In this document: positions 504 through 38,309 of the stretch, one piece after another | Numbering within the stretch: the first letter of the stretch is position 1 | How the letters are laid out: each line of letters starts with the position of its first letter | DNA from: Wocania arenilitoris | Lineage (GTDB): Bacteria; Bacteroidota; Bacteroidia; Flavobacteriales; Flavobacteriaceae | Length of the DNA stretch: 38,634 bases | Assembly (NCBI RefSeq): GCF_021728535.1 | Contig: NZ_JAKKDU010000021.1 | Span: 1 to 38,634, forward strand | Reading direction: 5' to 3' | Program-made: the position numbers and the translations under genes | The notes under the pieces: model-generated | Databases searched by the model: none | The model's input: only the letters and a program-made list of their open reading frames with translations | What the model was told of the DNA's origin: nothing

Positions 504-3500
504 ATGATTCAAAAATTACTTAAACTCATGTTTGTGTTTTGCTTGTTAAGTATGCAAAGCTTACAAGCGCAAAGCACAATTACTGGAACTATTACAGATA
601 GCGCAACTGGAATTCCCTTAGGAGGTGCCAATGTTATTGAAAAAGGAACCACAAATGGCGTTTCTACAGATTTTGACGGTAACTATAGTATTACTGTTTC
701 TAGCTCTACAGCTACTTTAGTTATTTCTTATATTGGTTATACCAACCAAGAGATTGCAGTTAATAACAAATCAACTATCAACGTATCTTTAGTTGAGGAT
801 GCTAGTCAACTAGATGAAGTTGTTGTTACTGCACTTGGTATTAAAAGAGAGCGTAAATCTTTAGGATATGCCGTTCAAGAAATAAAAGGTTCATCAATAG
901 CAGAACAGAAAGAACCTAACATGGTTAATGCATTGTCAGGAAGAATTACAGGTTTACAGGTTGTTAAATCTAGTAACGGTCCTGCTGGATCTTCTAAAAT
1001 TGTATTAAGAGGATATAGCTCGTTAACTAATGATAACCAACCATTAATAGTTGTTGATGGAACGCCAATGGATAATTTTACAGGTTCTACAAATGAGGGT
1101 TTCTGGAGTCCATCTGCCGATTTAGGTAATGGTATAGCCGATATTAACCCAGAAGATATTGAGACCTTAACGGTATTAAAAGGTGCATCTGCGGCTGCAT
1201 TATATGGTTCGCGAGCAGGTAATGGTGTTATTTTAATTACCACTAAAACGGGTAAATCTAATAACGGTTTAGGAATCTCTTACTCGTCTACCGTTGGTTT
1301 CCAAAGTATTTTTACATCACCGGATTTACAGAGCAGCTTCGGACAAGGTTCTCTTGGTGTTTACGATGAATATGGTCAATCTAGCTGGGGACCAAAAATT
1401 GAAGGTCAAACAGAAACAGGAGATGAGCAAGGATCAGTTGTTTTTGATAGAGCTTACGATAATATAGACAACTATTATAATGGTGGCTTTAGTCAGCAAC
1501 ACAGTCTGTCTTTTCAAAATCAAACAGAAAATGGTTCTATATATACATCGGCCAATTATTTAGAAGATGAAGGTATTTCACCATCGGCTACATTAGAGCG
1601 TTTAAATTTAACAGCTAGAGGTGTTTCTAAATTTGGTGCTAATAAAAATTGGTCTGTAGATACTAAAGTACAGTATAACAAAACAACGGCCAATAACAGA
1701 CCAAGAACTGGATTTGGTGCATTAAGCCAATACCAAACTATAATAAACTTTCCACGCTCTAGAGATATCAGACAATACTCTGCTGGCGTAGATGAATTTG
1801 GTAATCAAATTTGGTTTGATCCTAACTCAAACCAAATTAACCCGTATTGGGCAAACAAAAGACGTTTAAGCTGGGACTCTAGAGATAGATTTATAATGAC
1901 AGGAACATTAAACCATGATTTTAATGATTGGTTAAGAGGGGAAGTAAGAGCTGGTATAGATATTTACACCACTAATACAGAATCTAAAGTATTTGCAGGA
2001 ACTTCTAGCAACTCAACTTATGGTTTAGGCAAGAGAACATTTAATGAACAAAACTATAGTATGTTATTAACTGCCTCTAAAGACAATTTATTTGGTAAAT
2101 TTGGAGGATCGGCTTCTATTGGTGGAAATTTAATGTCTCAAGAAAGAAGTGGTTTAAGTAGTAATTCAGGAACCTTATTAGTGCCTAATTTGTTTAGCTT
2201 AAATAATGGAGTTAATCCAGCAAGTGTGTCTCAAAGCTTTAGCGAAAAGAAAATTAACTCAGTTTATGGGCTTTTCTCTTTAAACTATGACGGATATGCC
2301 TTTTTAGAATTTACAGGACGTAATGATTGGTCATCAACGCTTAGCGAAGCAAACAGATCTTTCTTCTATAATTCTGTTAATGCATCTCTTGTTATTTCGG
2401 ATATGATAACAAAAAATGGTGGTGAATTACCAAGTTGGTTTACTTTTGGTAAACTAAGAGGTTCTTATGCAGAGGTAGGTAATGACTTAGCACCTTTCCA
2501 ATTACAAAATGCATTTAACATAGGAAATGACGCTTTAGGAAATACGACAGCTTCTTCACAAAATACACTACTTAACCCTGATATTGTTAATGAGTTAATC
2601 AAATCTTATGAAGTTGGTTTAGAGGCGCGTTTCTTTGATAATAGAATAGGTTTAGATTTGGCATGGTACAAGTCTAATGCAACAAATCAGCTAATTAATC
2701 TTCCATTAGACCCTTTTAGTGGGTTTAACAATAAAAAGGTTAATGCTGGTGATATTCAAAACACAGGTATTGAGGCTACTTTAAAAGCCAGAATCTTAGA
2801 TAATGAAGATGGTTTAACCTGGGATATGGACTTTAATTATTCAAGAAACGAAAACACGATTGAAGCTTTAGCGGATGATGTTGTAACATTTAACTTAAGA
2901 ACTTTTGACAACTTTAGTATTACTGCCGATGTTGGTCAAGATTATGGGGTTATTGTTGGTACAAAATACCAAAGAGTTGAAGATGAGTCTAGCCCATTTT
3001 TTGGAAGAATTTTAGTTGATGCTGATGGATTGCCATTAGCTACATCGTCATCAGAAAAAGAAGTATTAGGAACACAAGTACCTGATGCCTTATTAGGTAT
3101 TACAAATATGTTAACTTACAAAAACTTCTCTTTTAGTTTCCTTTTTAATGCAAGTATTGGTGGAGAGATTTTCTCTGGTACTAACCACGCTTTACAACGA
3201 TCTGGTCTAGGTGCCGTAACCGTTGTTAATGGAGACCGAGCTCCTGTAGTGTTTAATGGTGTTGTAGATGATGGTGCTGGTAATTTAAGTGAAAATACTG
3301 TTGGTGCTACACCACAAAACTTATGGGCTGCTATTACTGGACGTTCTGGAAACTTGGGTATTACTGAAGCTAATGTATACGATGCTACTCATATAAGGTT
3401 AAGAAATGTAAATTTAACTTATAACTTTGATAAAGATTGGTTAGACAAAACGCCTTTTAAAGGCTTATCTCTTGGAGTTTCTGCCAACAATGTATGGATG

Positions 3501-3629
3501 ATTACAAGTCATCTAAATGGTGTGGATCCTGAAGCTGTAAACGGTACAAATACCAATGCTACAGGTTTTGAGAACTTAGCACCACCAACAACGAGAACTG
3601 TATTTTTGAATATAGCTGCTAAATTTTAA
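504..3629 (+). CDS. SusC/RagA-type TonB-dependent outer-membrane transporter
   Basis: A 1041-residue TonB-dependent outer-membrane transporter that would import oligosaccharides or other polymers bound by its SusD partner. It begins with a signal peptide (MIQKLLKLMFVFCLLSMQ, cleaved after LQAQ). A carboxypeptidase-regulatory-like beta-sandwich covers about residues 26-110 (GTITDSATGIPLGGANV, FDGNYSI). The LDEVVVTALGIKRE box follows, then the plug domain (about 115-245, with SGRITGLQV, LRGYSSL, LKGASAAALYGSRAGNGVILITTK). The rest is a 22-strand-type barrel ending in an aromatic residue (AAKF). Length is normal for the family. The start has no Shine-Dalgarno sequence, as usual in Bacteroidota. 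The SusD gene follows after 14 bases, so the two are co-transcribed. The substrate cannot be read from the sequence. Confidence 0.96.
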   Translation: MIQKLLKLMFVFCLLSMQSLQAQSTITGTITDSATGIPLGGANVIEKGTTNGVSTDFDGNYSITVSSSTATLVISYIGYTNQEIAVNNKSTINVSLVEDASQLDEVVVTALGIKRERKSLGYAVQEIKGSSIAEQKEPNMVNALSGRITGLQVVKSSNGPAGSSKIVLRGYSSLTNDNQPLIVVDGTPMDNFTGSTNEGFWSPSADLGNGIADINPEDIETLTVLKGASAAALYGSRAGNGVILITTKTGKSNNGLGISYSSTVGFQSIFTSPDLQSSFGQGSLGVYDEYGQSSWGPKIEGQTETGDEQGSVVFDRAYDNIDNYYNGGFSQQHSLSFQNQTENGSIYTSANYLEDEGISPSATLERLNLTARGVSKFGANKNWSVDTKVQYNKTTANNRPRTGFGALSQYQTIINFPRSRDIRQYSAGVDEFGNQIWFDPNSNQINPYWANKRRLSWDSRDRFIMTGTLNHDFNDWLRGEVRAGIDIYTTNTESKVFAGTSSNSTYGLGKRTFNEQNYSMLLTASKDNLFGKFGGSASIGGNLMSQERSGLSSNSGTLLVPNLFSLNNGVNPASVSQSFSEKKINSVYGLFSLNYDGYAFLEFTGRNDWSSTLSEANRSFFYNSVNASLVISDMITKNGGELPSWFTFGKLRGSYAEVGNDLAPFQLQNAFNIGNDALGNTTASSQNTLLNPDIVNELIKSYEVGLEARFFDNRIGLDLAWYKSNATNQLINLPLDPFSGFNNKKVNAGDIQNTGIEATLKARILDNEDGLTWDMDFNYSRNENTIEALADDVVTFNLRTFDNFSITADVGQDYGVIVGTKYQRVEDESSPFFGRILVDADGLPLATSSSEKEVLGTQVPDALLGITNMLTYKNFSFSFLFNASIGGEIFSGTNHALQRSGLGAVTVVNGDRAPVVFNGVVDDGAGNLSENTVGATPQNLWAAITGRSGNLGITEANVYDATHIRLRNVNLTYNFDKDWLDKTPFKGLSLGVSANNVWMITSHLNGVDPEAVNGTNTNATGFENLAPPTTRTVFLNIAAKF

Positions 3630-3643
3630 AAAAAAGAAAAATT

Positions 3644-5551
3644 ATGAAAAAAGTATTAAGTAAAACAATGGCACTATTTTGTGCAACCCTATTGGTTTTT
3701 TCTTGTAGTGATTTTGAAGAAATCAATGAGAACCCATTAGCTGCAACAGCAGAGCAAGTAGAAGTAGAATTTTTTATTAATAACTCCATTGGAGGCGCAC
3801 AGCAAAACCCTCATATTGCAGAACGTATTTTTGTACTATATTGGAAAGATGCTTCTAGAACCTCCAGATTAGGAGTGCTTTCTCATGGGGGGTTTAACGA
3901 TGGTTGGACAAATGACTACTTTAACGGCTATGTATCTAAATGGTTACTTAACGCCACAAATGCAATTAACGTAGCAGAAGAGAAAATCGCTACTGGTAAT
4001 GTTAAAGAATATACCGAGAATGTTATGCATATCGCAAGAATTTGGAGAGTGTACATTATGAGTGAAATGAGCGACACTTTCGGTCCAATTCCAATTGATG
4101 GTTTTAAAGGTGAAAACCCTGCTTATAACAGCGTAGAAGAAGTTTATACATTTATGCTTGATGAATTAAAAGATGCTGTTAGTAAAATTGACGACACAAA
4201 CGCTTTTAAACCAGATCCAAATCTAGATCCAGCTTTTGGCTATGACTACGATAAATGGAAGAAATATGGTAACTCAATGAGAATGCGTTTAGCTATGCGT
4301 TTATCTGAAGTTGCTCCTGCACTTGCTAAACAACACTTTGAAGAAGCAGCCAATAGTGGGCAAATTATTGCTACATCTGCAGATGATATGCGCGTGTTTT
4401 CTGGTGGTGGATGGAACAATTACACAAACCCACAGTCTAGACAATGGAATAGCCACTATATAACGCCAACGTACAGAAATTTAGTTGTAGGGTTAGGTAG
4501 TGTAACATCTATGGAGCAATTGCCAGCTGATGATCAAGTTAATATTAAACCTGCTGGTTATTTGGGTAAGAGATTTGAAAATCATTTTTCAATGCTTACT
4601 AACGATCCTGCTAAAGGTTTCTTTTTAGATGGTTTACCAAATACTATAGATCCTAGATCTTATAAAACATTCCCAATCCCTGGAAACGTTGATGACACTA
4701 ATTATAGTAATTACCCAACATGGAGTAACAACCATACAGTAACCGAAAGAACTTTACTTGATGATAATGGTGATGAGTTAATGACAATTGACGCTGCCTT
4801 TACTTATAATGCTACAGCAGCTGGAAATACTGGTGAACCAGGTTCGAAAAACCGATTAATAGGTCCTGGATCTTGGCCACGTTTAGGTCTTGATTTCAGA
4901 CATGGAGAAAGTGAGCGTATCTTTTTCCCATCTTGGGAAACGCATTTCTTAATTGCTGAGGCTTATACTAGAGGTTGGAATACCCCAATAACTGGTAAAG
5001 ATGCTTACGAAACAGGAATTGCAGAAAGCTTTGCTTACTATGGTGTTTCAGATCATTTAGCAACCTATATAGCTTCTGAAGATTATAACAACAACGGTAC
5101 ATCAGTAAGCTGGGATCATACAACTGAACCTCCTGCAAGTGTAACTATGGACTATGTTGATGGATATACAGACACTCCAGGTACTTTTGAATACACGTAC
5201 CCAAATAACACGATTTACGAAGGTGGTAACGTTAAAAACGATCTTTTAACTAAAATTATTACACAAAAGTTTATCGCATCAAGTGCGTGGATACCTCTTG
5301 AATTATGGAATGATCACAGACGTTTAGGGTTACCTTTCTTTGAAAACCCTGCAGTTGAAGATCCATTCCCAAATATGCCACAATTAAATCCTGGGAATGT
5401 AATGTCTAATCAAGTTAACTTCTTTGGACAACGTGTAAAATACCCTTCGTCTTTTGTTAATAATATTCCTAATGGTCACGCCCAAGCTGTTCAGCACTTA
5501 GGTGGTCCAGACGAAGTTCACACACCATTATGGTGGGCTAAACAAAATTAA
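3644..5551 (+). CDS. SusD/RagB-type nutrient-binding lipoprotein
   Basis: A 635-residue surface lipoprotein that forms the lid of the SusC transporter and captures glycan. The signal peptide ends in the lipobox LVFSC, with Cys21 lipidated, followed by SDFEEINENP, typical of the SusD-like family 2 (PF12771-type). Other matching stretches are KYGNSMRMRLAMRLSEVAP (about 204-222), a FPSWETHFLIAEAYTRGW helix near 430, and a C-terminal QKFIASSAWIPLELWNDHRR segment typical of the family's last repeat. It begins 14 bases after susC and is followed by a strong terminator, so susC-susD is a two-gene unit whose transcription probably stops before the FG-GAP gene unless there is read-through. Confidence 0.95.
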   Translation: MKKVLSKTMALFCATLLVFSCSDFEEINENPLAATAEQVEVEFFINNSIGGAQQNPHIAERIFVLYWKDASRTSRLGVLSHGGFNDGWTNDYFNGYVSKWLLNATNAINVAEEKIATGNVKEYTENVMHIARIWRVYIMSEMSDTFGPIPIDGFKGENPAYNSVEEVYTFMLDELKDAVSKIDDTNAFKPDPNLDPAFGYDYDKWKKYGNSMRMRLAMRLSEVAPALAKQHFEEAANSGQIIATSADDMRVFSGGGWNNYTNPQSRQWNSHYITPTYRNLVVGLGSVTSMEQLPADDQVNIKPAGYLGKRFENHFSMLTNDPAKGFFLDGLPNTIDPRSYKTFPIPGNVDDTNYSNYPTWSNNHTVTERTLLDDNGDELMTIDAAFTYNATAAGNTGEPGSKNRLIGPGSWPRLGLDFRHGESERIFFPSWETHFLIAEAYTRGWNTPITGKDAYETGIAESFAYYGVSDHLATYIASEDYNNNGTSVSWDHTTEPPASVTMDYVDGYTDTPGTFEYTYPNNTIYEGGNVKNDLLTKIITQKFIASSAWIPLELWNDHRRLGLPFFENPAVEDPFPNMPQLNPGNVMSNQVNFFGQRVKYPSSFVNNIPNGHAQAVQHLGGPDEVHTPLWWAKQN

Positions 5552-5572
5552 TATAATTTAAATTTATATTGT

Positions 5573-5612
5573 TAAAAGGGAGAATCTATATGATTCTCCC
5601 TTTTATATTTTT
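5573..5612 (+). terminator. Rho-independent terminator after susD
   Basis: A perfect 13-14 bp stem (AAAAGGGAGAATC at 5574-5586 with GATTCTCCCTTTT at 5592-5604, plus the T5573-A5605 pair) encloses the 5-base loop TATAT and is followed by a T-rich tail. It lies 22 bases after the susD stop codon. Confidence 0.9.
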
Positions 5613-5650
5613 TATATTTATCATTAATTAATTATTAAAAAAATAGTGTT

Positions 5651-8600
5651 TTGAAAAAAAATATTCTCTTTACAATTTTAAGTCTTATCCTAGTTAATTG
5701 TAATCAAAACAAATCGTATAAAACCTTAAAAACAATAGAAAAGAAAACGTCTAATAGTACTACGCTATTTTCTTTAATTGCTAATGATAAAACAAATTTT
5801 ACTTTCAAGAATAACGTTGAAGAAACACCAGATTTAAACTTTTTAAATTTTGGTAATATTTATAATGGCGGAGGCGTTGCTACAGCAGATTTCAACAATG
5901 ATGGTTTAGTAGATGTGTTTTTTGTTGCTAATCAAAATTCAAACAAACTCTATTTAAACGAAGGCGGTTTTAAATTTAAGGATATTACAGAAACTTCTGG
6001 ATTAAAAGATGCTATAGGGTGGTCTACAGGTGTATCAGTGGTTGATATTAATAATGATGGGTGGCTGGATATTTACATATGTAAATCAGGGTCTAATCAA
6101 ACAACCTTTTCAAAAGAAAACAAACTATTTATTAATCAAAAAAACAACACCTTTATTGATAAAGCCAAAGGTTGGAAAATAAATGACCCTGGTTTTAGTA
6201 CGCAATCCTATTTTTTTGATTTTGATAAAGATGGTGATTTAGACCTGTATTTAGTAAACCACAGACCAGACTTTGAGAATACTGGTAGGCTTAATATGCG
6301 CATCGAGAGAGATTATTCAAGGTTAAGCTCGGACATATTATATAGAAATGATGGTTCTTCATTTACTGAAATAACGCATGAAGCAGGTATAGTTAACAAA
6401 GCTTTTGGCTTAAGCGCATCAATAGGCGATTTTAATAATGATGGCTGGCCAGATATTTATGTGTGTAATGATTTTTTGACTCCAGACAAACTGTACATAA
6501 ATAATAAAAATGGCAAGTTTACCGATGAGATTTTAAATAGAATTAAACATACGTCTTTTAGCAGTATGGGATCAGACTATGCTGACTTAAACAACGATTT
6601 ACATCCAGATTTATTTGTATTAGAAATGGCATTTGAAGACCATGTGCGCAGTAAACAAAACATGGCATCAATGAATACAAATAATTTTAACAACTTAGTT
6701 AAAAATGGTTATAACCATCAATACATGGTAAACACATTGCAGCTTAATAGAGGAAATGGGAATTTTAGTGAAATAGCTCAAATAAGTGGATTAGCGAAAA
6801 CAGACTGGAGTTGGACACCATTAATTGCAGATTTTGATAATGATGGACTCAAAGATATTTTTGTTTCTAATGGTATCTTAAAAGACATGGCAAATCAAGA
6901 TTTTAGAACCGAATTAAGTAAAAGATTTAAACAAAAAAACAAACCTAGCTTTAAAGAAATAACAGATTTGCAACCTTCTACAAAAATTCAAAATTATGCC
7001 TTTAAAAATGAAGGCAACTTAAATTTTTCTAAAAACCCAGAAAATTGGGGTCTAAAAGAAAAAACCCAATCAAACGGTGCCGCCTATGCCGATTTTGATA
7101 ACGATGGTGATTTAGATTTAGTAATAAATAACATTAACGACACACCACTACTCTATCAAAATAATGATACTAATAACTTTATTCAAATTAAACTAAAAGG
7201 TGATGATAAAAACAAATTTGCCATAGGTTCTAAAATTGCCGTTACCGCAAATAATATAAAACAATATCAAGAATTATATACTAGCAGAGGTTTTATATCT
7301 TCTGTAGAAAACATTATAAATTTTGGTGTTGGAGATGCCGCTAATATTGATGAGATTTTAATTGAATGGCCTAATCAAAAAATAACTAAACTTACAAATA
7401 TTAAATCGAATCAAATCATTTCTGTGAATCAAGAAAATGCTATTTCATCAGGAGTCACTAATGAAAGTTTACCAAAAACACTATTACAAAAAGACAGTCC
7501 TTACAAACAGGGTATTGCTTATAAGCATAATGAAAATGACTTTAATGACTATAAAAAGCAAATTTTGTTACCACACAGTCAGTCAACAAATGGTCCGTTT
7601 ATAGATAAATCTGATGTTAACGGAGATGGTTTAGAAGATTTTTTTATTGGCGGTGCAAAAGGTCAAAGTGGAGAATTATACTTTCAAGATGAGAATAGTA
7701 AATTTATAAAACAAGACACAAAAATCTGGCAAGAAGATAAAGAATATGAAGATTTAGGTGTGCTATTTTTAGACATTGACAATGATAAAGACAACGATCT
7801 TTATGTGGTTAGTGGTGGTGCAGAGTTTGAAGAAAACAGCAATCTATACCAAGATAGAATTTATATAAACGATGGTAAAGGCAACTTTAGTAAAGGTAAA
7901 AATATACTCCCTAAAATCACTTCTAGTGGGCAAACTATTAAAGCTTCAGATATTGATAATGATGGTGATTTAGACTTATTTGTTGGAGGGCGAGTAATAC
8001 CTGATAAATACCCATATGCGCCAGAGTCTTACATCTTAATTAACGAAAATGGCAAGTTTTATAATAAAACAAAAACTATAGCTCCTGCAATTAAAAATGT
8101 GGGGCTTGTAACGGATGCTATATTTTCAGATTATGATAATGATAGCGATGAAGATTTAATTGTTGTGGGAGAATGGATGCCAATAACAATTTTTGAAAAC
8201 AACAACGGAACATTAAAGCCAATTGAAAACAACTCTTTAAAAAACACAGAAGGGATTTGGTTTAGCATTGAAAGTGTAGATATTGATAATGATGGAGATA
8301 TAGATTATTTTGTTGGAAACTTAGGACTAAACACAAAATATAAAGCCAGTACTAAAAAACCTTTTCATGTATTTTGTGATGATTTTGATAATTCTGGAAC
8401 TTATGATATTGTTTTAACTTCAAATTATAAAGGCACTTTAGTGCCATCAAGAGGGCTAGAATGTTCATCGCAGCAAATGCCTTTTATTAAAGATAAATTT
8501 CCAACATTTACAGAGTTTTCTGAAGCTTCTCTTGAAGATATTTATGGTAAAGTAGCTTTAGAAAAAGCACTTCATCTTAAAGTACATATGCTTAATAGTG

Positions 8601-8959
8601 TATTTTTAGAAAATGATGGCGGTGGTAATTTTAGCATTAAAAACTTACCTAAAATGCTTCAAATTGCACCAATTATGGATTTTGAGTTTATTGATATTAA
8701 TAATGATAATCAAAAAGAAATTATAGCAATTGGCAATCATTATAATGCCGAAGTTGAAACAGTACGTTATGATGCTTCTTTAGGCAGTATTTTATCTTAT
8801 AAAAACAAGACTTTTGAAATTATTGATATGGAGGAAACAGGTTTTGTTAACATAGGAAATTCAAAAGATATTATAGCCATTAACAAAAAAGAAGGCTCTA
8901 CAATACTTATTACTAATAATGATGATAGAGTTAATTTGTTTAATTTACACAATAAGTAA
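5651..8959 (+). CDS. Large FG-GAP/VCBS-repeat lipoprotein with ASPIC/UnbV domain
   Basis: A 1102-residue surface lipoprotein starting at TTG. No in-frame ATG precedes the lipoprotein signal (ILFTILSLILVNC, Cys17), so TTG is the best start. It carries at least a dozen calcium-binding DxDxDG-type loops of beta-propeller repeats (for example DFNNDGLVD, DINNDGWLD, DFDKDGDLD, DVNGDGLED, DIDNDGDLD). These are split into two sets by an ASPIC/UnbV domain at about 507-590 (FIQIKLKGDD, NFGVGDAANIDEILIEWPNQ). This CRTAC1-like architecture of about 1100 residues is common next to SusC/SusD pairs in Flavobacteriaceae. Its role is unproven; binding of a polymer at the surface is the usual guess. It starts about 40 bases after the susD terminator, and the histidine kinase gene follows after 13 bases. 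Confidence 0.9.
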   Translation: MKKNILFTILSLILVNCNQNKSYKTLKTIEKKTSNSTTLFSLIANDKTNFTFKNNVEETPDLNFLNFGNIYNGGGVATADFNNDGLVDVFFVANQNSNKLYLNEGGFKFKDITETSGLKDAIGWSTGVSVVDINNDGWLDIYICKSGSNQTTFSKENKLFINQKNNTFIDKAKGWKINDPGFSTQSYFFDFDKDGDLDLYLVNHRPDFENTGRLNMRIERDYSRLSSDILYRNDGSSFTEITHEAGIVNKAFGLSASIGDFNNDGWPDIYVCNDFLTPDKLYINNKNGKFTDEILNRIKHTSFSSMGSDYADLNNDLHPDLFVLEMAFEDHVRSKQNMASMNTNNFNNLVKNGYNHQYMVNTLQLNRGNGNFSEIAQISGLAKTDWSWTPLIADFDNDGLKDIFVSNGILKDMANQDFRTELSKRFKQKNKPSFKEITDLQPSTKIQNYAFKNEGNLNFSKNPENWGLKEKTQSNGAAYADFDNDGDLDLVINNINDTPLLYQNNDTNNFIQIKLKGDDKNKFAIGSKIAVTANNIKQYQELYTSRGFISSVENIINFGVGDAANIDEILIEWPNQKITKLTNIKSNQIISVNQENAISSGVTNESLPKTLLQKDSPYKQGIAYKHNENDFNDYKKQILLPHSQSTNGPFIDKSDVNGDGLEDFFIGGAKGQSGELYFQDENSKFIKQDTKIWQEDKEYEDLGVLFLDIDNDKDNDLYVVSGGAEFEENSNLYQDRIYINDGKGNFSKGKNILPKITSSGQTIKASDIDNDGDLDLFVGGRVIPDKYPYAPESYILINENGKFYNKTKTIAPAIKNVGLVTDAIFSDYDNDSDEDLIVVGEWMPITIFENNNGTLKPIENNSLKNTEGIWFSIESVDIDNDGDIDYFVGNLGLNTKYKASTKKPFHVFCDDFDNSGTYDIVLTSNYKGTLVPSRGLECSSQQMPFIKDKFPTFTEFSEASLEDIYGKVALEKALHLKVHMLNSVFLENDGGGNFSIKNLPKMLQIAPIMDFEFIDINNDNQKEIIAIGNHYNAEVETVRYDASLGSILSYKNKTFEIIDMEETGFVNIGNSKDIIAINKKEGSTILITNNDDRVNLFNLHNK

Positions 8960-10034: not shown

Positions 10035-10753
10035 CAATTAAGTGTATTATTATTGACGATGAGCCTTTAGCCATAAGCGTTATAGAGAATCATTTAAAAA
10101 ATTTCGATAATATTGAAGTTGTAGAAACCTTTAGCAACCCATTAAAAGCATTTGGTGTTTTACAACAAGAAAAAATAGATCTTGTTTTTTTAGACATTAA
10201 TATGCCTCAAATGACTGGCTTTACCTTTATTGAAAATTTAAACTTTAAACCATTAATAGTAATAACCACTGCTTATAGAGAATATGCTGTAAAAAGTTTT
10301 GAGTTAGATGTGCTTGATTATTTAGTAAAACCAATACCGTTTAATCGGTTTTTAAAAACAATAAATAAAGTATATCAGCAAATATATGCTAATGCAAATT
10401 CTGGAGACATGAGTTTAAACCAAGAACCTCATATTTTTTTAAAGGTTGATAAAAAGTTAGTTAAAGTTAACCTCAATGATATTTTGTTTATTGAAAGTTT
10501 AAAAGATTACATTAAAATAGCTACAACACTAGGCGATTATGTAGTACACAAATCGCTTACAGCTATTTCTGAAGAGTTACCACAATCAAATTTTATACGT
10601 GTACATCGTTCATATAATATTTCAATAAATAAAATTGTTGCTTTAGAAGGCAATACTATTGAAATTGCTGGTAGAAGAATCCCTATTGGAAGAAACTATT
10701 TAAAGCAAACCAAAGAACGCATATTTAATATTAAAGAAGACAAGCAAATCTAG
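10031..10753 (+). CDS. LytTR-family response regulator
   Basis: A 240-residue response regulator paired with the kinase just upstream, sharing 4 bases with it. The receiver domain (about 1-120) has the acidic pair Asp9-Asp10 (IIIDDEPLA), phospho-acceptor Asp55 (LVFLDINMPQ), the TTAYREYAVKSF switch segment and the conserved lysine in DYLVKPI. A LytTR DNA-binding domain fills about 135-235 (ILFIESLKDYIKIAT, FIRVHRSYNISINKI, RRIPIGRNYL). LytTR proteins bind spaced direct repeats upstream of their targets. The target is not visible here, but the susC leader repeats at 434-468 are a candidate. Confidence 0.95.
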   Translation: MTIKCIIIDDEPLAISVIENHLKNFDNIEVVETFSNPLKAFGVLQQEKIDLVFLDINMPQMTGFTFIENLNFKPLIVITTAYREYAVKSFELDVLDYLVKPIPFNRFLKTINKVYQQIYANANSGDMSLNQEPHIFLKVDKKLVKVNLNDILFIESLKDYIKIATTLGDYVVHKSLTAISEELPQSNFIRVHRSYNISINKIVALEGNTIEIAGRRIPIGRNYLKQTKERIFNIKEDKQI

Positions 10754-33483: not shown

Positions 33484-34218
33484 TTAACGACGTTGCCTTA
33501 CAACTTCATATAAAAAAGCACCACAAGCGACAGACACATTTAAAGATTCAATATCGCCTAATAAAGGAAGTTTAGCTTTAGCATCAACTACTTTTAAAGT
33601 TGATGGGTTGATACCTCTACCTTCCGATCCCATAATAATGGCACAAGGCTCTGTAAAAGACACATCGTATAAAGTATCATTAGTTTTTTCGGTTGCAGCA
33701 ATTACTTTAATACCTGAAGCTTGCATATAAAACACAGCGTCTTTTATATGGTCTACCTTACAAATGGGTATTTTAAAAACTGCTCCTGCACTTGTTTTTA
33801 TGGTGTCTCCATTTACTGGAGCGCCGCCTTTTTTTTGAATGATGATACCATCAACACCTGTACATTCTGCCGTTCTAATAATAGCTCCAAAATTACGAAC
33901 ATCACTTAGTTGATCTAATAGCAGGAACAAAGGCGTTTTCCCAGACTCCATAACGTTCAAAACCAATGTCTCTAAGTTATGAAAAGCGATAGGGGATATT
34001 TGTGCAACTGCTCCTTGGTGGTTCTTTTTAGTTAAGCGATTGAGTTTTTCAACAGGAACATAAGATTTATTAATACTATTTCTGTTAATAAGCGATTCCA
34101 ACTCTTTAAACAGCTCACCTTGTAACCCTTTTTGAAGAAATACTTTGTCTATTGTTTCGCCTGCATTTATGGCTTCTATAATGGCACGAATACCAAAAAT
34201 TTGTGTTTGATCTTGCAT
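33484..34218 (-). CDS. rlmB: 23S rRNA (G2251-2'-O)-methyltransferase, TrmH/SpoU family
   Basis: A 244-residue SPOUT methyltransferase that most resembles RlmB, which methylates the ribose of G2251 in the 23S rRNA P loop. The N-terminal substrate-binding domain (IFGIRAIIEAINAGETIDKV, LTKKNHQGAVAQIS) precedes the knotted catalytic domain. Its motifs are DQLSDVRNFGAIIRTAE (motif 1, with the catalytic Arg), IMGSEGRGI (motif 2) and IESLNVSVACGAFLYE (motif 3). A TATCTTTA promoter element ends 4 bases before its ATG. It converges with the rhomboid gene and diverges from the haloperoxidase fusion gene. Confidence 0.92.
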   Translation of the reverse strand: MQDQTQIFGIRAIIEAINAGETIDKVFLQKGLQGELFKELESLINRNSINKSYVPVEKLNRLTKKNHQGAVAQISPIAFHNLETLVLNVMESGKTPLFLLLDQLSDVRNFGAIIRTAECTGVDGIIIQKKGGAPVNGDTIKTSAGAVFKIPICKVDHIKDAVFYMQASGIKVIAATEKTNDTLYDVSFTEPCAIIMGSEGRGINPSTLKVVDAKAKLPLLGDIESLNVSVACGAFLYEVVRQRR

Positions 34219-34352: not shown

Positions 34353-37300
34353 ATGTTATTGAAAAAAAACACTAAATATTTTATTTTATTATTAGCAATT
34401 TTAGTAATCAATGTCGTAAATGGCCAGATTAATTTTATAGATAGGGCAGAAAGCTCAGGTTTGGGTATATCTTGTGGAACAACTTATCTAGGTAATGGAG
34501 TGTCCTTTTATGACTATAACAATGATGGCTATGATGATTTAACCTTTGCAACTGAAGATGGACAAAACATAAGGTTTTTTAAAAATACGGGTAGTAATGG
34601 TTTTATTGAAGAACATCTTAATATTTCTGAATTAAACTATCAAACTAAACAAGTTAATTGGGTAGATATAGATAACGACGGAGATAAAGATTTATATGTT
34701 ACGAGTGATACGAATGGAAATAGATTATTTGTAAATGATGGCAATTTAAACTTTATTGACATTACGAATTTTTCAGGTTTACCCGAGCAAAATATATTCA
34801 CTTATGGAGCATCTTGGGGGGATTATAACAATGATGGTTACTTAGATGTTTTTATTTGTAGTTTTGATTCTAATAAAGCAATTCCAAATTTTCTTTATAA
34901 AAATAATGGTGATAACACATTTACTAATGTAAGTGAATCTGCTGGTATAAGTTCTTTAGGGCATTTGTCTTTTTGTGCTGCTTTTTTTGATTATAATAAC
35001 GATGGTTGGCAAGATATTTATATATCTAATGATAGGATTTTTAATCCTAATATTTTATACAAGAATAACGGCGATGGTACGTTTACTGATAAAAGTCAGG
35101 AATCTAAATCTGATATAAGGATAGACGCAATGTCCGTAACCATTGATGACTTTGATAACGACGGTTGGTTTGATATATATGTAACTAATTCTCCTGATGA
35201 TGGCAATGTTTTTTTAAGAAATAATGGAAATGGCACTTTTACCGATATAGCTCCATCCACTGGAACCAAAGTTTTTGGTGTTTGTTGGGGAGCAGTTTTC
35301 CTGGATGCTGAAAATGATAAAGATTTAGACTTGTACGTTAGTAGTTCGTTAAACGGGACTTCAGTTTATAATTCCTCTGTTTTTTTTGAGAATTTAGGCG
35401 ATAATAAATTTCAAAGTGATATAAATGTAGGGTTTTTTAATGACAATAAGCCCAGTCATTCAAATGCAATTGGAGATGTAAATAATGATGGTTTATACGA
35501 TATTATTGTGTCTAATACGGATGATGAGTTTATTAATCTTTGGATGAACGAATCTGTTACTAACAATAATTGGTTAAGGATAGAATTAGAAGGAACTGTA
35601 AGTAACCGAGATGGAATAGGATCGGTAATAGAGATTTCTGCAAACGGTACAAAACAATACCGTTATACGTTGTGTGGAGAAGGGTATTTATCTCAAAACT
35701 CGTCATACGAAATATTTGGGGTTGGGAGTAATACTTTAGTAGATTATGTTAAAGTAAAATGGTTAAGTGGTATTGAAGACTATTATTATAACGTTGATGT
35801 TAACCAATCACTAACTTTAAAAGAAGGTACTGGCAGTAAGGCTACCCCTGTATATGGATGCGTGAATCCTAATTCGTGTAATTTTAATCCTGATGCGACT
35901 GTTGATGATGGTTCATGCGTTTTTGCGGAGTCAGGAAATATTTTAGGTAATTCTAGTTCTAATCCACTGAGAACAGAGAAATATACTCATAGTTTAACTG
36001 ACAGAGAAGCATACTTTTGGACGGTTGTGAATGGAGAAATTCTTGATGGACAAGGGACAAATACAATTAGTGTTAAGTGGGATATAGCCTCTAAAGGTGT
36101 TGTTTCGGTTGTTAATAAGAATGATAATTGCATGTCTAACACTGTTTCTTTAGAAGTACCCTTATCTATAAATTTGCGTTTAGAAGATGCTAATTATTCT
36201 ATAGCAAGATTATGGAATGAACTATTGCTGGAAGCTATAAGGACAGATTATGCAAGACCTACAGTTCATGCTCGAAACCTGTTTCATACAAGTGTCGCAA
36301 TGTATGATTCGTGGGCCATTTATAATAAGAATAATGAAGCTTATTTAATTGGTAAGGATTTACATGGTTTTATTTGTGACTTTGATGGCTTTTCACATTC
36401 TGTAGATTATCAGGTTTCTGATGCAGTTAATAAAACTTTAAGTTTTGCTGTTTATAGGTTGTTAGAGCACAGGTTTAGAAAATCTCCAAACTGGGAAACT
36501 ATTTCAAAACGCTTAGATGAGTTAATGGAGCTACTAGGTTATGATATTAATTATGATTCTATTGACTATTCAAATGGAGAACCTGCTGCTTTAGGCAATT
36601 TTATTGGAGCTAAAATAATTGAATATGGACTTCAAGATGGTTCGAATGAATTAAATGGGTATACCAACGAATATTATTTTCCTGTAAATGAGTCTTTAGC
36701 TCCAATTGTTAGTGGCAACGAAACCATTTCTAACCCTAATAGATGGCAACCACTTTCATTAGATGTGTATATTGATCAAAGTGGGAATATAGTGTCTCCT
36801 ACTAATTCTGTTCCAGAATTTTTGAGTCCAGAATGGGGTAATACGCTTCCTTTTTCTTTGAAGGAGAACGATTTGAGTGTTTATTCTCGAAATTCAAACA
36901 GTTATAGAGTATACCATGACCCTGGAGCACCTCCTTTTATAGATGCAGAAGATGCTTCTTTATCTAATGTGTACAAGTGGGGGTTCTCTTTGGTTTCCAT
37001 TTGGAGTTCTCATTTGTCTCCTATTGATGGTGTAATGTGGGATATATCTCCGAAATCTATAGGTAACATAGCATCAAGTTCTTTTCCTAATGATTTTTAT
37101 GCTTATAAAGATTTTTATAAGCAGATTGAAGGAGGAGATATTGGTAATGGCCACAATTTAAACCCAATTACAAACCAAGCTTATATCGAGCAAATAGTGC
37201 CTAGAGGGGACTATACTAGGGTTTTGGCTGAATTCTGGGCTGATGGCCCCGACTCAGAAACCCCTCCAGGACATTGGTTTGTTTTGTTAAATTATATTAA

Positions 37301-38309
37301 TGACCACCCATTAATTCAAAAGAAATTCGAAGGGAACGGTTCTGTTTTAAGTGATATTGAATGGGAAGTAAAGTCCTATTTTATATTGGGAGGAGCTATG
37401 CATGATGCAGCTATTGCTGCATGGGGTATTAAAGGGTGGTATGACTATATACGTCCTATTTCTGCTATTAGATACATGGCAGGTAAAGGTCAAAGCTCTG
37501 AAACAAATATGGATAATTTTGATATTGATGGTATGCCTTTAATGGATGGATTTGTTGAGGTAGTTGGTGAAGATGACTCTTTGGCTGGAGATAATGGTGA
37601 AAATGTAGGCAAGATTAAACTATATGCTTGGAGAGGTCATAGTTATATTCAAGATGCAGAAACAGATGAAGCCGGTGTTGGTTGGATTCTTGCTGAAAAT
37701 TGGTGGCCGTACCAACGTCCATCATTTGTTACTCCTCCGTTTGCTGGCTATGTTTCTGGACACTCAACTTATTCGAGAGCTGCTGCCGAAATTCTTACTA
37801 GGTTAACAGGTTCTCCTTTTTTTCCGGGAGGACTTGGAGAGTTTCATGCTAACAAAAATGAGTTTTTAGTTTTTGAAGAAGGACCTAGTCAAGATATAAT
37901 ATTACAATGGGCTACATATAGAGATGCATCTGATCAGTGTAGTCTTTCAAGAATATGGGGGGGCATCCACCCACCTATGGATGATATACCTGGAAGAATA
38001 ATAGGAGAGAAAATAGGAGTAGAAGCGTTTGATTTTGCAAAGAAGTATTTTAATAATAAAACTGAAGAGGAAGTTAAAATGATGGCATTTCCCAACCCAG
38101 TGAGTGAATCGGATAAACTATTTATTAACAATACAAATGAAGGAATGGAATTTGAACTATTTAATTTGCAAGGTAAGAGTGTAGCCATAGATTTTGAGTT
38201 TAATAAGACAAATTATCAAACTAAGATAGCGTTTGTTGGAAGTTTGACTACTGGAATTTATATACTAAAGACTGAAGGAAAGTTTTGGAAGATTATAGTG
38301 ATGAATTAG
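34353..38309 (+). CDS. FG-GAP/ASPIC-UnbV and vanadium haloperoxidase fusion with T9SS signal
   Basis: A 1318-residue secreted protein with a signal peptide (YFILLLAILVINVVNG). Residues about 25-400 hold FG-GAP/VCBS propeller repeats with calcium loops (DYNNDGYDD, DIDNDGDKD, DYNNDGYLD, DFDNDGWFD, DVNNDGLYD). An ASPIC/UnbV domain follows (about 405-487), then a short Cys-rich motif YGCVNPNSCNFNPDATVDDG (about 500-519) and a PKD-like domain (about 530-605). Residues about 607-1240 form a vanadium-dependent haloperoxidase/PAP2 domain with the full signature: KGWYDYIRP (Lys1027, Arg1034), SGHS (His1137), and SRIWGGIHPPMD (Arg1200, His1206, Asp1210). The C-terminus (MAFPNPVSESDKLFI, GIYILKTEGKFWKIIVMN) is a type A T9SS sorting domain. 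Vanadate-dependent halide oxidation, or phosphatase activity, at the cell surface is inferred. Confidence 0.9.
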   Translation: MLLKKNTKYFILLLAILVINVVNGQINFIDRAESSGLGISCGTTYLGNGVSFYDYNNDGYDDLTFATEDGQNIRFFKNTGSNGFIEEHLNISELNYQTKQVNWVDIDNDGDKDLYVTSDTNGNRLFVNDGNLNFIDITNFSGLPEQNIFTYGASWGDYNNDGYLDVFICSFDSNKAIPNFLYKNNGDNTFTNVSESAGISSLGHLSFCAAFFDYNNDGWQDIYISNDRIFNPNILYKNNGDGTFTDKSQESKSDIRIDAMSVTIDDFDNDGWFDIYVTNSPDDGNVFLRNNGNGTFTDIAPSTGTKVFGVCWGAVFLDAENDKDLDLYVSSSLNGTSVYNSSVFFENLGDNKFQSDINVGFFNDNKPSHSNAIGDVNNDGLYDIIVSNTDDEFINLWMNESVTNNNWLRIELEGTVSNRDGIGSVIEISANGTKQYRYTLCGEGYLSQNSSYEIFGVGSNTLVDYVKVKWLSGIEDYYYNVDVNQSLTLKEGTGSKATPVYGCVNPNSCNFNPDATVDDGSCVFAESGNILGNSSSNPLRTEKYTHSLTDREAYFWTVVNGEILDGQGTNTISVKWDIASKGVVSVVNKNDNCMSNTVSLEVPLSINLRLEDANYSIARLWNELLLEAIRTDYARPTVHARNLFHTSVAMYDSWAIYNKNNEAYLIGKDLHGFICDFDGFSHSVDYQVSDAVNKTLSFAVYRLLEHRFRKSPNWETISKRLDELMELLGYDINYDSIDYSNGEPAALGNFIGAKIIEYGLQDGSNELNGYTNEYYFPVNESLAPIVSGNETISNPNRWQPLSLDVYIDQSGNIVSPTNSVPEFLSPEWGNTLPFSLKENDLSVYSRNSNSYRVYHDPGAPPFIDAEDASLSNVYKWGFSLVSIWSSHLSPIDGVMWDISPKSIGNIASSSFPNDFYAYKDFYKQIEGGDIGNGHNLNPITNQAYIEQIVPRGDYTRVLAEFWADGPDSETPPGHWFVLLNYINDHPLIQKKFEGNGSVLSDIEWEVKSYFILGGAMHDAAIAAWGIKGWYDYIRPISAIRYMAGKGQSSETNMDNFDIDGMPLMDGFVEVVGEDDSLAGDNGENVGKIKLYAWRGHSYIQDAETDEAGVGWILAENWWPYQRPSFVTPPFAGYVSGHSTYSRAAAEILTRLTGSPFFPGGLGEFHANKNEFLVFEEGPSQDIILQWATYRDASDQCSLSRIWGGIHPPMDDIPGRIIGEKIGVEAFDFAKKYFNNKTEEEVKMMAFPNPVSESDKLFINNTNEGMEFELFNLQGKSVAIDFEFNKTNYQTKIAFVGSLTTGIYILKTEGKFWKIIVMN

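Follow-up and report, generated by a model that had tools for sequence, protein, structure and literature searches.

What is accomplished by a single polypeptide in which a β-propeller resembling that of murine CRTAC1 is joined to a vanadium haloperoxidase (VHPO)? The question is raised by a gene at the end of a 38,634-nucleotide stretch of DNA from Wocania arenilitoris, referred to here as the window, which constitutes a whole contig of the assembly (NZ_JAKKDU010000021.1, or C14). Encoded in one frame are an FG-GAP propeller, an ASPIC/UnbV domain, a Cys-rich motif, a PKD-like domain, a VHPO part with its vanadate site, and a C-terminal sorting domain of the type IX secretion system (T9SS), all of which are listed in Table 1. 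A first-pass annotation of the DNA had described this frame and its motifs, and each was indeed located at the residues it gave; the PKD_6 domain (residues 549-601) is present in addition to the parts named there. Judging from its sequence and predicted structure, the protein is probably a cell-surface VHPO with a built-in binding module. This grading of the whole account derives from those of its two parts: haloperoxidase activity is well favored, and for a true aiming role of the propeller the chances are about even. No description of a propeller-VHPO fusion was found in the literature, the texts covered being open-licence full texts.

The C-terminal half matches the Pfam models VCPO_2nd (34.5 bits, best stretch 1178-1235) and DUF6851 above their curated cut-offs, whereas the PAP2 model (PF01569) remains below its own at 12.9 versus 27.2 bits (E 0.097). 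A model of residues 612-1235 predicted with 77 sequences has a pLDDT of 90.7 and a pTM of 0.93 and, in keeping with the VCPO_2nd match, displays the VHPO fold with a second helical bundle. A Foldseek search of the PDB with this model gave 89 matches at E≤10. Among the best 50 of the 89, those at E≤0.001 comprise 17 chains from five proteins, each a VHPO or the VHPO homologue NapH3: NapH1 (3w36, 1.4e-17), XhnO11 (9l8x, 6.4e-17), NapH3 (8cxl, 3.0e-16), the Zobellia iodoperoxidase (4usz, 4cit), and the Curvularia chloroperoxidase (1.3e-10 at best). The first match beyond these is an algal bromoperoxidase at E 0.088. A profile search of the PDB at E≤1 yielded five matches, each labelled VHPO, NapH1 or NapH3, and the sequence and profile searches together returned the same kinds of VHPO plus another one, 9ptr, with 9l8x as the best sequence match. 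Finally, comparison with a profile of Zobellia-type iodoperoxidases, built from 20 of 57 fetched sequences, gave a probability of 97.5 and an E-value of 5.1e-12, with the three vanadate motifs in register.

The residues of the vanadate site are strictly maintained. Scanning of genome contigs with the enzyme part gave at least 590 matching stretches, 552 of them relatives, and the best 80 were kept. In an alignment of 77 sequences (A5; the window protein and 76 of the 80 loci, with L028, L032, L068 and L075 left out), Lys 1027, Arg 1034, Ser 1135, Gly 1136, His 1137, His 1206 and Asp 1210 are identical in every row. Arg 1200 is identical in 76 of the 77, the remaining row reading X in L081, a record with N bases. 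The three motif patterns are present in all 80 loci.

By family and fold, the C-terminal half groups with the VHPOs and not with the PAP2 phosphatases, as the first-pass annotation had proposed; the profile comparison it recommended favors VHPO and iodoperoxidase models, with PAP2 under its cut-off. VHPOs and PAP2 enzymes share an active site, and the same annotation had offered a surface phosphatase as an alternative. Here the PAP2-type site of an acid phosphatase would act on phosphate esters while the propeller binds a phosphorylated polymer. The common site lends this explanation some credit, as do the PAP2 E-value of 0.097 and the title of PDB entry 3bb0, according to which the apo-chloroperoxidase of Curvularia catalyzes dephosphorylation. 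Against it stand the PAP2 score, less than half the cut-off, the occurrence of PAP2 at E≤0.001 in only 2 of 36 fused members as compared to VCPO_2nd, the second bundle, in all 36, and the absence of any PAP2 phosphatase from the 17 significant folds and the five profile matches in the PDB. The phosphatase alternative is weakened by these results, and we consider it quite unlikely.

Among solved structures, the closest folds to the enzyme part are the NapH1/XhnO11-type bacterial VHPOs (3w35/3w36, 9l8x), yet the fold alignments show only 17-18% identity, and none of the solved chains is long enough to include a propeller in addition. The 17 significant chains contain 410-576 residues, which agrees with the remark in the first-pass annotation that characterized haloperoxidases lack one. 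XhnO11 (9l8x) has SGS where the window's family has SGH. According to PMC13198595, NapH1 and Mcl24 carry a serine or threonine in place of the motif-2 histidine; this NapH1-type feature is absent here, the SGH being found in 77 of 77 sequences. These observations bear on the idea that the protein is a non-halogenating VHPO relative, catalyzing a rearrangement like that of NapH3, or some other reaction of a non-redox kind, with the propeller presenting the specific substrate. NapH3 is among the nearest folds, and the title of its entry describes a VHPO homologue performing an α-hydroxyketone rearrangement. The complete Lys/Arg/SGH/Arg/His set is kept, however, in the window's family, as it is in 57 of 57 iodoperoxidase-type sequences, and the replacement of histidine seen in NapH1 and Mcl24 is lacking. 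Such a reading is very unlikely in our estimation.

The window protein has the same three motifs, including SGH, as the iodoperoxidase of Zobellia galactanivorans (4cit/4usz). That enzyme, however, consists of ~450 residues with no propeller in the chain. Its type has alanine, glycine or serine four residues after the vanadate histidine in 57 of 57 sequences, where the window protein has an aspartate. At 20 bits to 4cit the window protein is a distant relative and not the orthologue, which is another gene of the genome discussed below. The Curvularia inaequalis chloroperoxidase (1vni and others) has the VHPO fold in common with the window protein, but the identity is 12-13%, and the propeller, ASPIC and sorting domains are missing from it. 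The segment EFWADGPDSETPPGHW may hold the counterpart of Asp 292 of the Curvularia enzyme. Likewise, Trp 1024 and Phe 1130 presumably occupy the places of Curvularia Trp 350 and Phe 397, by counting from the motifs. Phe 1130 corresponds to the invariant column F519 of alignment A5. In algal vanadium bromoperoxidases, a histidine lies seven residues before the motif-2 histidine; the window protein has Phe 1130 there, so the algal bromoperoxidase type is disfavored. With respect to the halide, a preprint (PMC12871659) describes a Rhodopirellula VHPO that clusters near the iodoperoxidases yet chlorinates and prefers bromide. Given that departure of preference from clustering, resemblance to one VHPO type or another does not tell which halide the window protein would prefer.

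The N-terminal half resembles animal CRTAC1. Its Pfam matches above curated cut-offs are FG-GAP_3 at 148.1 bits, FG-GAP at 44.2 and UnbV_ASPIC, and together with the pattern matches they agree with the FG-GAP loops, ASPIC/UnbV domain, Cys-rich motif and vanadate site that had been annotated in one frame. The six Dx[DN]xDG loops begin at residues 54, 105, 157, 213, 266 and 375, and by our own reading of the DSSP string the predicted strands are compatible with seven blades. According to PMC3123361, loops of this type bind calcium in the blades of integrin and of a small number of further propellers. For residues 27-1226, a model predicted with 47 sequences (pLDDT 83.2, pTM 0.61) has murine CRTAC1 as its best match in the PDB (E 1.2e-25, TM by target 0.73), followed by VHPOs, a fungal lectin propeller, integrins and other propellers. 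In sequence as well, cartilage acidic protein 1 (CRTAC1, 9etn) is matched at 9.5e-11; it displays an FG-GAP propeller followed by ASPIC, the pair by which the CRTAC1/ASPIC family is recognized and which the window protein possesses, but no VHPO part. CRTAC1 carries an EGF-like tail; no EGF-like C-terminal domain was matched by Pfam in the window protein. The Cys-rich motif that follows ASPIC in the window protein appears to accompany the fusion, for a similar motif occurs in 42 of 54 fused relatives with a loose pattern, in 24 of 54 with a strict one, and in none of the 26 others, a set that includes L046, a locus cut by a contig end. A fixed packing of the propeller on the enzyme was considered and found unsupported at the pTM of 0.61; a flexible link between the two halves, or too shallow an alignment, may be the reason.

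The following mechanism can be envisaged. The protein would leave the cell through the Sec and type IX systems, as suggested by the type A sorting domain that had been annotated at its end (Por_Secre_tail, 30.0 bits; TIGR04183, 30.3 bits versus a cut-off of 23, the sole NCBIfam match in the 1318 residues). SprA, a core T9SS protein by which the presence of the system was judged, is encoded in the same genome (2731 bits). The CRTAC1-like calcium-loop propeller with its ASPIC domain would hold the enzyme to a surface partner protein, matrix or polymer, and the Cys-rich/PKD stalk would link it to the enzyme. By analogy with known VHPOs, the two-bundle enzyme would bind vanadate at His 1206 with the participation of Lys 1027, Arg 1034, Ser 1135, Gly 1136 and Arg 1200, and His 1137 would serve as the acid-base residue. 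The fold matches and the motifs in register agree with a gathering of these ligands about a single oxyanion. The conserved site and the fold suggest that hydrogen peroxide would be used to oxidize a halide. The uses that the first-pass annotation had put forward for such a tethered enzyme, oxidative chemistry on algal glycans or defence, are speculative.

The gene is real, being neither a chance frame nor degraded, as far as its sequence can tell. Its nearest relative among those fetched, L017 from Snuella sedimenti, is 87% identical in the VHPO part, and the ratio of nonsynonymous to synonymous substitution rates (dN/dS, NG86 method) between the two genes is 0.086 overall, 0.067-0.181 by region, and 0.076 for the propeller, indicative of purifying selection; the dS of 2.25 for the sorting domain is saturated. 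A broken gene was rejected on the grounds of the uninterrupted frame and this low ratio.

The listing of proteins with the same domain order, also recommended in the first-pass annotation, shows that the arrangement is widespread. With a propeller-only model built from alignment A4 (46 of the 80 loci), a propeller was found in the same open reading frame as the enzyme in 54 of the 80 best relatives, L046 being cut. Eight loci had the appearance of shortened genes (~1105-1130 residues from the first ATG), an interpretation that was rejected as the frame is open upstream and contains the propeller. When 36 members were scanned (the window protein and 35 of the 54), FG-GAP, ASPIC, DUF6851 and VCPO_2nd were present in all, the T9SS tail in 32 and PKD_6 in 20. 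At E≤1e-20 the enzyme part occurs in 85 of 299 Flavobacteriaceae genomes. Among the 99 matches listed for this family, 49 have open frames of at least 1250 residues, the length of the fusion, although length is only a proxy for it; 39 have 700-1249 residues and 11 are shorter. The enzyme part is also found at E≤1e-30 in 22 of 395 genomes drawn from the phylum Bacteroidota. As read from these sequences, the fusion is common in the Flavobacteriaceae and extends to other Bacteroidota. The window's own genome carries a second fused copy (L011:5897-9940:-) with an enzyme part 66% identical, whereas two genomes of the same genus (G006, G240) showed no enzyme-part match at E≤1e-20. Two fused genes stand in tandem in L024 (4063-12139) and L037 (4069-12123).

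Other arrangements of the enzyme were encountered as well. In L065, L069, L078, L080 and L096, the enzyme part is followed by MopE-type metal-binding repeats (PF11617, with four to eight stretches matched) and then by a T9SS tail; judging from sequence, this is a different fusion of the same enzyme. In L062, genes for SusC, SusD, a separate propeller-ASPIC protein and a propeller-less VHPO follow one another on the same strand, with ~15 bases between the last two, and in L092 a separate propeller gene lies ~15 bases from the VHPO gene on the opposite strand, tail to tail. Unfused VHPOs of the same family were also noted in records titled KSB1, Gemmatimonadetes, Caldithrix and Neomarinimicrobiota (L077, L081, L082, L086, L089, L090).

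A tree of 82 enzyme parts (those of the 80 loci, the window protein and its paralogue) places 56 of the 57 fused rows, L046 counted as fused, on one side of a branch with an SH-aLRT value of 99. The exception, L053, falls among the unfused enzymes, and in the propeller tree it is the sister of L092, where the propeller is separate (100/99); on these two grounds fusion has likely taken place a second time. The possibility that all fusions go back to one event was considered, and the position of L053 outside the clade of the other 56 speaks against it.

The two halves of the window protein appear to have had different histories. Its enzyme part averages 64% identity to 44 other fused proteins, 42 of which (all but L053 and L091) show 65% among themselves, whereas its propeller is 32% identical to the other fused propellers as compared to 46% among the 42. 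By the approximately unbiased (AU) test, the VHPO data reject a position outside the fused clade both for the window type alone, that is, the window protein with its nearest relatives L017 and L018 (p 0.0015), and for L091 alone (p 2.2e-5). The window type groups with L036 and L019 in the enzyme tree at 98/95. The propeller data, tested on groups taken from the enzyme trees, reject this grouping (AU p 3.4e-7), as they do the wider one that includes L071 and L061 (p 0.0009) and that of L091 with L064, L070 and L075 (p 0.0009). Given this disagreement between the trees, the catalytic part was probably retained while the propeller was exchanged or evolved very rapidly. Exchange is the best explanation of the discordant halves, although very fast evolution of the propeller may account for them instead. 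The long propeller branches of L091, L042 and L062 make their placement uncertain.

Propellers of this kind also accompany a second type of VHPO. On contig C34 of the window's own genome, a 447-residue protein (L012:6391-7734:-) matches the crystallized Zobellia iodoperoxidase (4cit) at 685 bits and is its orthologue. Abutting its gene directly upstream, on the same strand, is that of a 1087-residue FG-GAP/ASPIC protein termed a lipoprotein (L012:7735-10998:-). Iodoperoxidase-type loci were collected from 120 Flavobacteriaceae genomes (the best 30 matches) and from 296 genomes of the phylum (27 additional loci among the best 30); these 57 are best-scoring loci and not a random draw, and relatives among them are not independent. 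In 42 of them an FG-GAP/ASPIC gene lies directly upstream on the same strand, namely in 26 of the 30 from the Flavobacteriaceae set and in 16 of the 27 from the phylum set (7 of 8 inside the family, 9 of 19 outside). As a control, such a gene was found in the flanks of an rlmB-like gene in 1 of 29 loci, the flanks having the same nominal 1500 bases (two of the 30 loci were shorter) and the window being left out, its flank holding the fused gene. We know of no report of this pairing, the literature not having been searched for it as such. Work on Zobellia (PMC9296495) mentions an iodoperoxidase that is elevated on a brown alga; this is compatible with an algal setting, although the protein is a different one. 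It is tempting to speculate that FG-GAP/ASPIC propellers are general aiming partners of extracellular VHPOs in Bacteroidota, either fused with exchangeable propellers or, in the Zobellia iodoperoxidase type, arranged as a conserved two-gene unit; this wider proposal is tentative, and we hold it to be possible rather than probable.

Several results weigh against an aiming propeller on a haloperoxidase. The propeller is missing from 25 of the 80 relatives, and it is thus not needed for the enzyme. An FG-GAP/ASPIC gene is absent from the flanks of 15 of the 57 iodoperoxidase-type loci, 10 of the 19 outside the family among them. Stand-alone Bacteroidota proteins such as that at 5651-8959 of the window have the same domain pair in ~1100 residues, but the five copies examined in this genome form a propeller group of their own (100/100), apart from the fused propeller. 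One of the five adjoins the iodoperoxidase gene and three lie in SusC-SusD operons, that at 504-8959 of the window among them, so that this kind of propeller is not specific to VHPOs. At a pTM of 0.61, a defined placement of one half on the other is not supported. The AU test does not reject a tree in which the window propeller is the sister of the main fused ones (p 0.149), and exchange with a distant propeller is therefore not proved. The dephosphorylation named in the title of 3bb0 proceeds with the same active site.

In another explanation, the protein is a haloperoxidase with a passive propeller, serving stability or surface display only, without choice of target, its different history being drift. 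The relatives without a propeller, five of them with MopE repeats instead, would be expected on this view, as would the long propeller branches. Purifying selection has acted on the propeller between the window gene and L017, however, the fusion in L053 looks separate from the main one, and such propellers also go together with a different VHPO type. A passive propeller is, in our opinion, unlikely, and a surface VHPO with a binding module remains the preferred description.

Table 1 Features of the propeller-VHPO gene in the window.
Feature	Coordinates	Strand	Basis or remark
Propeller-ASPIC-Cys-PKD-VHPO-T9SS protein, whole gene	34353..38309	+	1318 aa, start ATG, internal stops 0
Putative Sec signal peptide, residues 1-24	34353..34424	+	By-eye judgement of sequence
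FG-GAP β-propeller, residues ~27-405	34431..35567	+	Pfam, six Dx[DN]xDG loops, predicted strands
ASPIC/UnbV domain, residues 421-488	35613..35816	+	UnbV_ASPIC 47.4 bits, cut-off 23.4
Cys-rich motif YGC...DDGSC, residues 501-522	35853..35918	+	Pattern in sequence
PKD-like domain, residues 549-601	35997..36155	+	PKD_6 27.2 bits, cut-off 25
VHPO part, residues 612-1235	36186..38057	+	Sequence, profile, predicted fold
DUF6851 match within VHPO part, residues 687-800	36411..36752	+	Pfam 28.4 bits
EFWADGPDSETPPGHW, residues 960-975	37230..37277	+	13/16 positions invariant across 77 sequences
Vanadate motif 1, K1027...R1034-P1035 (K-X6-R-P)	37431..37457	+	Motif and alignment
Vanadate motif 2, PPFAGYVSGH, residues 1128-1137	37734..37763	+	Motif and alignment; SGH ends at H1137
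Vanadate motif 3, SRIWGGIHPPMD, residues 1199-1210	37947..37982	+	SR(1199-1200)-X5-H1206-X3-D1210
T9SS type A C-terminal sorting domain, residues 1246-1309	38088..38279	+	Por_Secre_tail, TIGR04183

Upstream of the fusion gene, on the opposite strand, lies a putative rlmB-like methyltransferase gene at 33484-34218; with this neighbor on the other strand, the fusion gene probably has a promoter to itself. A scan of the window for promoters and terminators was uninformative, with 17 promoter-like sites versus 22.1 expected from shuffled sequences and no terminators versus 2.1. As the window is the whole contig, nothing further downstream of the fusion gene can be read. A candidate for the lost downstream neighbor is nevertheless at hand. 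Genes for SusC, SusD and a 300-residue protein adjoin the VHPO gene in L017, L018, L036 and L053; no Pfam match was obtained for the 300-residue protein of L017. The same set is located at the very start of contig C32 of the window's own genome (L155:294-5812:-). Given this position and the L017-like orientation, it may be the lost neighbor, the two contigs being unjoined.

At the other end of the window, SusC, a SusD-like protein and the 1102-residue FG-GAP/ASPIC protein mentioned above are encoded between 504 and 8959. These genes are followed, to position 10753, by those for a histidine kinase and a LytTR response regulator, and the whole row possibly represents one functional unit.

VHPOs produce bleach-like reactive halogen species, which need a target, and how bacteria employ their extracellular VHPOs is, to our knowledge, poorly understood. 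A recurring propeller partner, whether fused or encoded next door, provides a handle on this problem, since the ligand of the propeller could reveal where the halogen chemistry goes. If the wider proposal is true, these proteins would together carry out halogenation at the surface, the substrate or the site being selected by the propeller, perhaps in concert with SusC-SusD partners. The recurring partner would also provide the bacterial CRTAC1-like proteins with a testable role, and the fused family offers a range of naturally differing propellers attached to a single catalytic core. With the propeller as the changeable aiming part and the enzyme as the constant one, the same chemistry may reach different targets in different species.

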